Under the pieces are notes generated by a model. The model was not told the DNA's origin, did no database searches, and was given only the letters and a program-made list of their open reading frames with translations. Below are positions 19,002 through 39,626 of a DNA stretch of 64,000 nt, piece by piece. The stretch is from Theristus sp. LFF4_11 (Eukaryota > Nematoda > Chromadorea > Monhysterida > Xyalidae). Both the position numbers and the translations under genes were made by a program. The stretch is from assembly GCA_030248135.1 (NCBI GenBank), contig JASANC010005483.1, positions 19,583-83,582 of the forward strand, given 5' to 3'. Numbering within the stretch: the first letter of the stretch is position 1; each line of letters opens with the position of its first letter.

Positions 19002-22892
<3,891 letters not shown>

Positions 22893-23263: not shown

Positions 23264-26200
23264 TCACGAAATCACATTCGGCATCAGCAAATCCAATCGT
23301 CCCGAGTACACCTCGACGACGAACAGCACCACGGCGGCGACGTGCATGCCGACGAGCGCAACCGACAGCCAACCAGCAGAGCTCAGTCCGATCGGCAACA
23401 GCGACCTGCCATCGGACCACCGATCACGATCGAGACAGACGCCGAAACGCAACTCAAACTGACGCAACTCCTGGGGCCAGTTTTACAAAAAGCTTTGCAG
23501 GCCGGTAGTGCCACTACTACGCCACTGAGAGCTCCTGAATAACTTCATGAAACAAACAGTTCACTATTGGATTGGATTACTAGTGGCGTTTGCTAGTGGT
23601 ATATCACTACTGGACTACTAGTGGTAAATCACTACTAGATTACTGGTGGTGTATCACCCCTGGAATACTAGTGGTGCATCACTACTGGGCTACTAGTGGT
23701 GCATGACTACTGGGCTACTAGCGGTGTATCAGTGTCACTACTGGACTACTAAGCGTTTCTAAAACTGGCGCCTGGTCGGTATAGCGACGCATGATGTAGT
23801 CCAGCACGTGCGCGTGCCGCGTCGCCGCCTTGTCCAGAGCGTTCATCCAGCGTCTCGGCGCCCGCCTGCGGAACATCATGCCGCCCGGCTGAAAGCCGAG
23901 TTCTGGCAGGTCGGTCGCACGAAGGCAGAGCGCCCGTTCGAGCAGCGACCGCAGCGCGTCCTCGGCGTACACGATCGCGAATCGACGGCGGTCGTCGCGA
24001 AGCGCGTCGGCCATGTTGCGCATCCAGATCGGCTCCGAAACGGTGAACGCCAGCCGCAGCGGCGGACGGGCGTCGGTGGCGGCGCGAAACTCCGGCAGCC
24101 GCTCGCGGACACTGTCGTACCAGGCGCCTGCGGAGCTGCCGTCCGCGTTCAGTACCAGTTGCATTCGACCGCTCGACACCGCTGAGATCATTTGTGCGTA
24201 GTCGGCGAACGGTCGGTGATCGTACTCGATCAACAGTCGCGCGAGCAGCGTATTGCTGTAGAGCGCGAGAAACAAGGTCATGGCGAGCTTTTGCACCACT
24301 CGCGAGAGGCCGCTGGCGCCGGACGCCCACGGTACGGTCCAGCGGTAGAGCGGCTTGCGCAGTTTGACGAACGCCAGCACCAGGGCGCACATCAGCCACG
24401 TGTCCGCCGTGTACATGTCGAAGAACGAATAGAACGAGCCGTGTTCTTAAAATCGAATAGAACGAGTCGTGGCTCTTAAGAACGAATAAAACGAGCCGTG
24501 GCTCTTAAGAACGAATAGAACGAGCCGTGCTCTTAAGAACGAATTGTACGATAGCCGTGCTCTTAAGAATGAATAGAACGAGCCGTGCTCTTAAGAACGA
24601 ATAGAACGAGCCGTGCTCTTAAGAACGAATAGAACGAGCCGTTGCTCTTAAGAACGAATAGAACGAGCCGTGCTCTTAAAAACAAATAGAACGAGCCGTG
24701 CTCTTAAGAACGACTAGAACGAGCCGTGCTCTTAAGAACGACTAGAACGAGCCGTGCTCTTAAGAACGACTAGAACGAGCCGTGCTCTTAAAAACAAATA
24801 GAACGAGCCGTGCTCTTAAGAACGACTAGAACGAGCCGTGCTTTTAAGAACGAATAGAACGAGCCGTGGCTCTTAAGAACGAATAGGACGGTAGCCGTGC
24901 TCTTAAGAACGAATAGAACGAGCCGTGCTCTTAAGAACGAATAGAAGTAGCCGTGCTCTTAAAAACAAATAGAACGAGCCGTGCTCTTAAGAACGACTAG
25001 AACGAGCCGTGCTCTTAAGAACGAATAGAACGAGCCGTGCTCTTAAGAACGACTAGAACGAGCCGTGCTCTTAAGAACGACTAGAACGAGCCGTGCTCTT
25101 AAGAACGACTAGAACGAGCCGTGCTCTTAAAAACAAATAGAACGAGCCGTGCTCTTAAGAACGACTAGAACGAGCCGTGCTTTTAAGAACGAATAGAACG
25201 AGCCGTGGCTCTTAAGAACGAATAGGACGGTAGCCGTGCTCTTAAGAACGAATAGAACGAGCCATGCTCTTAAGAACGAATAGAACGAGCCGTGCTCTTT
25301 AGAACGAATAGAACGAGCCGTGCTCTTAAGAACGAATAGAACGAGCCGTGGCTCTTAAGAACGAATAGAACGAGCCGTGCTCTGTTCGGATGATATTGGA
25401 GAAAGTTTATCTGGCCAAGCCTCGCACTGTTTGCTGTCCAGTGTTCCCCAAATATGATGATGTGGGATTCACAGACAACGGACAGCAGACAACAGTGGGC
25501 AGCACAGCATGTGTATTTCGTTCAATTCAGTTCAACAACGAAAGGAGCTTCCAGTTGAACAGGACTAAACTGTCGGGCAAATGAGACGGCAAACCGCAAC
25601 TACAGTATGACACACAGAATATGACCGCTAAACTTTCACAAAATCAGCACACCATGAGTGTCGTCGTGCACAGCGATCGGGCGGAATCGATCGGCAAAGT
25701 TCACCGCAGCAAATTTATATTTTTTCAGCCGCTCATTGGTAATGAACAATTGGCCGGAGACAGCGTCCGCGCTCTCATTGTTGAACAAATTGTTGATAAT
25801 GTCGAACGCACTGCAGGCCGGTGATATCGAGCCCGCCGCTGTGTTGTCATGTGATTCAATAGTCCAACAAAAAATCAAAAAAAAACGCTGTTGAAATTCA
25901 GGAGAAACTGCAAGCATTCATCAACCGTGCGTTGCATGGTTATTGGGCACGACTTTGCTTCGATTTTAAATTTTTTTGAGCTCCCAGATAGAGTCGCGAA
26001 TTGAACGAAAATGACCAAAAGCGACGTTGTTGTCGCTCTCATGCAAATCACTCCACGCCCTACCCTGTGGACCTCACAGTTTTTGCCTGATTTTGGCGTT
26101 TGACCACTCTGGACTATTGAAACACTGGAGCGAGCTTGATAAAACCGGCTTCCTGGCATTTGCGGTCGGTATGACCGGGACGAGATCGAATGGAATACCA

Positions 26201-26595
26201 GCTGCCTCGAACAGGAATCGATGCAGCTCCGCAAACCGGCCCGGATGCGGACACAAAACCGTTCTAAGGGCCAGTTTTCATAAAAGCTTAGTGAGTCCGG
26301 TTCCGGTGGTGTTATACCACTGAGCCCCCTCGAATGAAATCGTGAACCATCGCACAGTTCGCTTTTTTCGCACGTGAATCGTGAATTGTTTTGCCAACAC
26401 TTCCGCTACATGTATTCTACGTGATATGAGGAAATCGATTGCAATGCGTTGTCTCATGAATTCATAAAGGTACATCATCAGTGGTGTAGTACTGGGCTTT
26501 TATTAAAACTGGCCCCTGATCAGATTCGTCGCGAGGGCACACGGTTCGACGTGGCCGGGCCAAACGGCTAAACGGAACGTGGTCCGATTTTTCAT
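23264..26595 (-). CDS. Ionotropic receptor (iGluR-like ligand-gated channel)
   Basis: Membrane cation channel with a split ligand-binding domain, of the ionotropic receptor/glutamate receptor superfamily. Proposed exons: 26510-26595, 26176-26263, 25653-25887, 23766-24445, 23264-23470, about 431 codons. S1 is spread over the first three exons (EAAGIPFDLVPV; ADAVSGQLFITNERLKKYKF). TM1 is TWLMCALVLAFVKL, the TM3 region KLAMTLFLALYSNTLLARLL, then S2, and TM4 near WLSVALVGMHVAAVVLFVVE. No amino-terminal LIVBP domain or signal peptide is seen; the start at 26595 is only the first in-frame ATG and upstream exons may be missing. The acceptor of the third exon is a guess. Introns at 26264-26509 and 23471-23765 coincide with MITE copies, and the intron above 24445 is a minisatellite. 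All phases fit. If the MITEs are not spliced, the gene is broken. Confidence 0.8.
23474..23771 (-). mobile_element. Introner-like MITE, copy A, inside the receptor gene
   Basis: TIR element read on the minus strand: GCGCCAGTTTTA at the start, TAAAACTGGCCC at the end, flanked by CAG on both sides. The interior has about seven tandem copies of a unit near CTACTGGACTACTAGTGGT (plus strand, 23570-23755). Splicing at GT in the TIR (23765) and AG in the flanking CAG (23471) joins two receptor exons in phase 0. Read through, it would introduce a stop within about 16 codons. Confidence 0.85.
24446..25386. repeat. ~28 bp minisatellite, about 33 copies
   Basis: Unit TTAAGAACGAATAGAACGAGCCGTGCTC (consensus, split as TTAAGAACGAATAGAACGAG + CCGTGCTC), with variants GACTAG, AAACAAATAG and CGGTAGCC. 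A higher-order block repeats over about 320 bp. The unit equals the first ~24 coding bases of the adjacent receptor exon (24422-24445), so the array appears to have grown out of the exon's 5' edge. Each unit carries CTTAAG on the gene strand, a weak acceptor-like site. Confidence 0.92.
26268..26515 (-). mobile_element. Introner-like MITE, copy B, inside the receptor gene
   Basis: Same family as copies A and C: GGGCCAGTTTTA at the start and AAAACTGGCCC at the end (minus strand), flanked by CAG and TAG. Shared inner motifs include AAGCTT, GTACTACACCACTG and GGGGGCTCAGTGGT. Splicing at 26509 (GT) and 26264 (AG of TTAG) joins receptor exons in phase 2 across the start of S1. Confidence 0.85.
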
Positions 26596-39395: not shown

Positions 39396-39626
39396 GGACC
39401 AGTTTTATAAAAGCTTAGTAGTCCAATCCAATAGTGGTACACCACTGAGCCCCTGAATGAAATCAAAAAACATCTCAGCTCCGTTTTGTCACGCAAACTG
39501 ATCTCACCAATGTCTGCTCTTCAACGTGATGTGAGAAAACTGATTTTTTTTTAAATTCATGAATTTATTCAGGCGCTCAGTGGTGTAGCAGCACTATTGG
39601 ACTGCTAAGATTCATAAAACTAGCGC
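39396..39626 (+). mobile_element. Introner-like MITE, copy C, intergenic
   Basis: Plus-strand start GGACCAGTTTTATAAAAGCT and end ATAAAACTAGCGC, flanked by TAG and CAG. Shares AGTGGTACACCACTGAGCCC and CTGAATGAAATC with copies A and B. It is outside any recognised gene, about 100 bp downstream of the SEC24 stop, so it gives the unspliced reference form of the family. Confidence 0.8.

Follow-up and report, generated by a model that had tools for sequence, protein, structure and literature searches.

The origin of new introns is an old question. Introns that multiply, such as the introner-like elements of fungi and the introners of Micromonas, have been offered as a source of intron gain; the elements analysed here are found in another host, and are likened to these by description and not by sequence. 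The other closely related group comprises the MITEs of the PIF/Harbinger superfamily (Tourist-like elements and mPing), which are short and non-coding, with inverted ends that start GG(G)CC and a 3-bp duplication of the target that is CWG, or TWA in others; such a duplication is typical of the superfamily. We know of no case of PIF/Harbinger MITEs acting as introns in coding exons.

Introners of DNA-transposon origin are described as similar introns occurring across genes, with ends that fall at inverted repeats, at target duplications or at both (Gozashti et al. 2022, PMC9860276). According to that source the introners of Chrysochromulina bring their own 5′ splice site and obtain the 3′ one from the target, without inverted repeats, and those of Aureococcus add codons (12 bp). 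It covers 3,325 genomes, and reports that among animals and land plants introners occur in two groups only, both animals; 'nematod' is absent from its main text. In a survey of 104 nematode genomes no source sequence is reported for 168 intron gains in Caenorhabditis, 166 of which left the exon length unchanged; nematode intron gains are described there as recent, with an excess of short direct repeats (3-5 bp) at the boundaries (PMC9169325). No nematode introner was found in the covered part of that paper, nor in the open-licence literature as represented mostly by titles and abstracts.

Two copies of a short element, A and B, lie in one gene (the window gene) within the 64,000-nucleotide stretch of DNA from Theristus sp. 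LFF4_11 that was analysed, termed the window here. We consider it very likely, judging from sequence, that A and B are members of a PIF/Harbinger-like MITE family that is spread over the genome and acts as introners, its exonic copies being spliced out where the target gives CAG or TAG on the sense strand. They would thus be of a known kind (the introner), in a host group without a known earlier case. Like the PIF/Harbinger MITEs the elements are short and non-coding, with the same kind of ends and duplication, but here they are predicted introns in coding exons. Like the introners described in PMC9860276 they appear to supply the 5′ site themselves, to use the target for the 3′ site and to add codons; they differ from the descriptions given there in the 3-bp CWG duplication, in the nematode host, and in having the donor six bases into the inverted repeat (position 7), so that 6 bp are left in the exon. 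An apparently recent gain and short direct repeats at the boundaries are common to these introns and to the nematode gains described in PMC9169325; in the present case, however, the source element can be seen and the exon would be longer by 6 nt.

Element A occupies positions 23474-23771 of the window (298 bp) and element B positions 26268-26515 (248 bp), both on the minus strand, i.e. that of the gene. They are present at the places, and with the common inverted ends, that the original prediction had given them, and both termini of each are inverted ends of the GGGCCAGTTTTA type. On the gene strand the end on the 5′ side reads G(C/G)GCCA/GTTTTA (where the second slash marks the predicted splice site), while the 3′ side reads ...AAACTGGCCC followed by CAG for A or TTAG for B. 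The two target copies of A both read CAG on the gene strand (minus), at 23471-23473 on the gene's 3′ side, where CAG is the predicted acceptor, and at 23772-23774 on its 5′ side. Those of B, also read on the minus strand, are TAG, with one extra T, at 26264-26266 on the 3′ side (the predicted acceptor) and CAG at 26516-26518 on the 5′ side. Contig C187 holds a closely similar gene copy that likewise includes both A and B, and there the target copies of B are TAG and (C)TAG. Element A has a 25-bp tandem repeat within it, at 23593-23750. Because this repeat has expanded on C187 the element is 751 bp there vs 298 bp in the window, so that the length of predicted intron A differs greatly between the two contigs. 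The window contains a third copy of the family (39396-39626, no strand assigned), around which no coding context was found.

Each predicted intron probably has as its donor the GT in the terminal repeat of the element, and as its acceptor the AG of the target duplication. Intron A is placed at 23471-23765 (minus strand, 295 nt, phase 0), with boundaries GCGCCA/GTTTTA ... GGCCCCAG/GAG, and intron B at 26264-26509 (minus strand, 246 nt, phase 2), with boundaries GGGCCA/GTTTTA ... GGCCCTTAG/AAC. On the same strand coding sequence lies 5′ of intron A at 23766-24443 (exon start approximate) and 3′ of it at 23285-23470 (ELRQFELRF..., end approximate); that 5′ of intron B is at 26510-26595 (MKNRTTFRL...NLIRG, exon start provisional) and that 3′ of it at 26180-26263 (TVLCPHPGRF..., exon end approximate). 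Excision had been proposed to restore phase 0 at A and phase 2 at B, and the minus-strand frames do join in this way. If left unspliced, A would introduce an in-frame stop 45 nt into the intron and B one 6 nt in. GT..AG pairs were scanned against the intron-less paralogue L073. The predicted pair for intron B ranked first of 139 (170 vs 134) and that for intron A second of 551 (142 vs 143), the winner for A using an AG three bases downstream of the predicted acceptor. Acceptors in nematodes usually have a U-rich tract; the predicted 3′ sites (GGCCCCAG) are without one. When intron B was folded as RNA in two overlapping halves, neither was remarkable (z of -0.13 and 1.16).

The window gene is a member of a large family, the spliced product giving 105 matches in the genome by protein search, and in ten of these both intron sites are covered without a stop (two on C1172, three on C897, and one each on C1881, C3284, C792, C2797 and C1189). 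L073, on C1172, is the sole open paralogue that was read, and has 398 codons with no stop. Compared with the spliced window protein it has exactly two residues fewer at site B (NLIRGQTVLCPHPGRF vs NLAR--TNACPIPGRL; in short form, NLIRGQT in the window vs NLAR--T) and exactly two fewer at site A (YTDQAPELRQ vs YMQL--ELRR). The two-codon excess at each junction arises because six bases separate the 5′ target copy from the donor. The original prediction of an introner-like origin for the two introns is supported by this empty paralogue with its exact gaps, and by recurrence in six other genes. Its proposal that one splice site lies in the terminal inverted repeat and the other in the target duplication is likewise supported by them, the same geometry being seen in those six genes. 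Two further points found no support. The element was said to be active; both contigs with the window gene hold A and B, and stretches of the other copies found by similarity (C187 aside) are 76-88% identical. The gene was labelled a receptor (iGluR); searches of Pfam and the PDB with the window gene and with L073 gave no significant match. Nor was a match to the spliced window gene found among 5.8 billion proteins, in a protein search in which 7,993 candidates were scored.

The genome-wide search that had been suggested for the family was run on the window's own assembly (159 Mb, 3,744 contigs). The exact sequence GGGCCAGTTTTA occurs 217 times vs 94 for the reversed control word. It is preceded by CAG in 55 cases and by CTG in 48 (controls 0 and 3), so that CWG precedes 103 of the 217 exact ends. 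Loci L009-L058 were taken around the first 100 of the 217 places, in contig order down to C755, L060-L072 were picked from lists of CWG-flanked ends, and L001-L008 came from the similarity search; L059 is a transposase locus and L073 the paralogue. A copy was counted if both ends were within three mismatches of 12. One-ended loci were left out, and overlapping fetches and allele-like duplicates (L003, L022, L023, L048, L062 and L071) were dropped. This gave 43 distinct two-ended copies of 172-530 bp (median 255), including L035 and L038, which have CGGCTAG ends and similar flanks and belong to another subfamily. CAG or CTG is found on at least one side of 34 of the 43, seven of the counted copies having been selected for CWG on one side, and on both sides of 15; an identical CWG word is present on both sides of 12, compared with a background of 3.7% per place. 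These counts indicate that the target duplication is CWG, of 3 bp.

The elements are short and non-coding, with terminal inverted repeats and a 3-bp CWG duplication, and this duplication together with the GGGCC ends, taken as general features of the superfamily, points to a family of PIF/Harbinger-like MITEs. The genome also contains DDE_Tnp_4, the domain of PIF/Harbinger transposases. At one such locus, L059, a 21-base stretch beside the transposase frame, on one side only, is common to the end of the TGGTCAG subfamily (L053), and has no match to the GGGCCAG ends; no autonomous element with GGGCCAG ends was found. We note that related subfamilies have other first bases and a similar AGTTTTATAAAA core, i.e. 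TGGTCAG (L039, L053 and L058) and CGGCTAG (L035 and L038), the former also having CWG-type flanks.

Eight of the 43 copies have strong support as introns of coding sequence, two have weaker support and two show an open frame only; the spanning frames of 17 were sent to Pfam and the others judged by frame length alone, so that coding cases may have been overlooked. In 31 of the 43, including L050 and L072, which are flanked by CAG on both sides, nothing was found that pointed to an intron in coding sequence. The family thus resembles a general MITE, with introns having arisen from a minority of its copies. The strong cases are A, B, L033, L040, L049, L061, L064 and L017, that is eight insertions in seven genes. 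Their 3′ boundaries read, in that order, CAG, TTAG, CAG, CAG, CAG, GCAG, CAAG and CAG, the AG at the junction being partly by construction, because a copy was considered only if AG lay no more than a few bases from its 3′ end. An in-frame stop starts within 60 nt in all ten candidate introns. In a weak test of open frames with shifted junctions, the predicted junction was best in 7 of the 11 non-allelic rows that reach 60 codons at any shift. Homologues set the junction independently at A, B, L049 and L064; in the other cases the cut was placed at the predicted site beforehand, and the resulting junction is spanned by a domain or paralogue. L072 was rejected, having no coding-looking frame on both sides, and L015, L024, L058, L028 and L032 gave no significant Pfam domain. 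No empty haplotype was seen for 12 of the 43 copies, with 40 of 89 candidate places scored; few copies have a second near-identical contig.

Introns derived from the same element are predicted, on this basis, to interrupt at least seven genes, i.e. the window gene and genes for a GPCR, a TRPV channel, a fucosyltransferase, a DUF1647 protein, a PAN-domain protein and an MFS transporter. Similar predicted introns are found at unrelated positions in several genes (the eight insertions above), their ends correspond to the ends of the element or the target duplication, and they are absent from homologues, as expected of a gain, with a mixed picture for L040. The spliced frame of L049 encodes a rhodopsin-type GPCR in which 7tm_1 spans the junction (2e-7, above the Pfam cut-off). 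It reads MRTVTNLGPFLLNLA vs MRTVTNY--FIVNLS in orexin receptor 2, so the solved homologue has exactly two residues fewer. Weak rows and haplotype-like pairs included, 38 paralogous genome matches span this site, of which 26 lack two codons, six lack one, five lack three and one lacks four. In L064 a TRPV channel reads AVPGASSWFF vs AVPG--SWFL in the solved homologue Inactive (E 2.6e-15). Two TRPV paralogue rows whose start lies shortly before the site have one codon fewer, and Pfam found no ion-channel domain, only a sub-threshold ATP-synt_I.

In L033 the DUF1647 domain spans the junction (1.6e-12, above the Pfam cut-off); by hand count 7 of 14 paralogous rows are two codons shorter, 6 are one codon shorter and 1, the weak row on C437 (E 0.71), is of equal length. 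The N-terminal domain of a fucosyltransferase spans the junction in L040 (1.8e-14, above the cut-off). Comparison with FUT9 gives a one-residue gap near the site, not two, and five spanning genome rows differ by -2, -2, 0, +1 and +8 codons. PAN_1 spans the junction of L061 (6.8e-6, above the cut-off). The MFS transporter match of L017 lies below the cut-off (2.9e-4), and an uninterrupted paralogue on C2049 is 79% identical over the joined flanks. Of the two weaker cases, L042 is a GPCR with an Srsx match that spans the site below the Pfam cut-off, and marginal PDB matches mostly on the right side, and L065 has a sub-threshold TYW2_N_2 on the right side only. L043 and L060 show just the open frame. 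DUF1647 and Srsx are what we take to be nematode-typical families. The SL1 RNA family was not found in a search for which the control likewise gave no match anywhere.

Other explanations for these arrangements have to be considered. The insertions might have broken the genes, with no splicing and the open flanks as remnants; each element does bring in-frame stops, splicing itself is a prediction from sequence, and the 3′ splice sites look weak. Yet the exon 5′ of A differs between the window and C187 at 14 of 678 bases, distributed 2, 2 and 10 over the three codon positions, with nine codons synonymous and four not; this third-position bias is a sign of coding constraint, while the exon 3′ of A (two synonymous, three not) is uninformative. 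Both flanks have also kept an open frame in several genes that are unrelated to one another, and their joining restores the frame inside a conserved domain. We regard broken genes as very unlikely.

Still less probable in our estimate is that the MITEs landed in pre-existing introns, and merely fill them. The junctions set by homologues at A, B, L049 and L064 fall at the element end and target copy, and each of the four is two residues longer than its homologue; ten members of the window-gene family are, in addition, open across both sites. The many copies for which no coding support was found would fit with such filling. Finally the introns could be old and the intron-less paralogues retrocopies that followed intron loss, as several of the paralogues are single open frames. 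Loss via cDNA would however leave the six element bases carried by the exon, and L073 is without them at both sites, as are the solved homologues of L049 and L064, which lack the two residues. We consider this barely credible.

If the elements do act as introners, a simple series of events would account for their arrangement. A PIF/Harbinger-type transposase would cut at CWG and paste in the element, duplicating the 3 bp. Because both ends carry GGGCCAGTTTTA, the donor GGGCCA/GTTTTA would be available whichever way round the element is inserted. Whether a fitting acceptor sits at the 3′ boundary would then depend on target polarity (sense CAG, not CTG), since it is the target duplication that serves as acceptor, and for this it must give CAG (or TAG) on the sense strand. 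The spliceosome would use the GT at position 7 of the end and the AG of the duplicated target, and the net effect of each insertion would be the addition of 6 nt to the mRNA, i.e. two extra codons. In L049 and L017 the target reads CTG on the 5′ side and CAG on the 3′ side, for which the simplest reading would be a T-to-A change that made the acceptor.

On balance we favour, with some reservation, the proposal that the family behaves as a nematode intron factory, offering a donor in either orientation and having the acceptor pre-installed by its preference for CWG targets, such that about half of exon insertions could be spliced at a cost of two amino acids. If true, this would supply the missing source of intron gain in the nematode phylum. 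It makes the testable prediction that exon insertions survive with CAG on the sense strand, and not with CTG. Intron gain by transposition becomes directly testable in an animal here, because each of its traces can be seen: the source element, the duplicated target, the homologous site without an insertion and the scar of two codons.

In three of the 43 copies, L017, L049 and L058, two of which are supported introns, the target has CTG on one side and CAG on the other, the middle base not being the same. Such a mismatch could result from mutation, a repair step or selection for the acceptor. A 28-bp minisatellite lies in another predicted intron of the window gene, at 24421-25383 of the window, with 34 copies among those listed. 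Exons of a METTL1-like tRNA guanine-N7-methyltransferase adjoin the gene at 21784-22419 on the minus strand; the best named match of this METTL1-like gene is to Onchocerca flexuosa.
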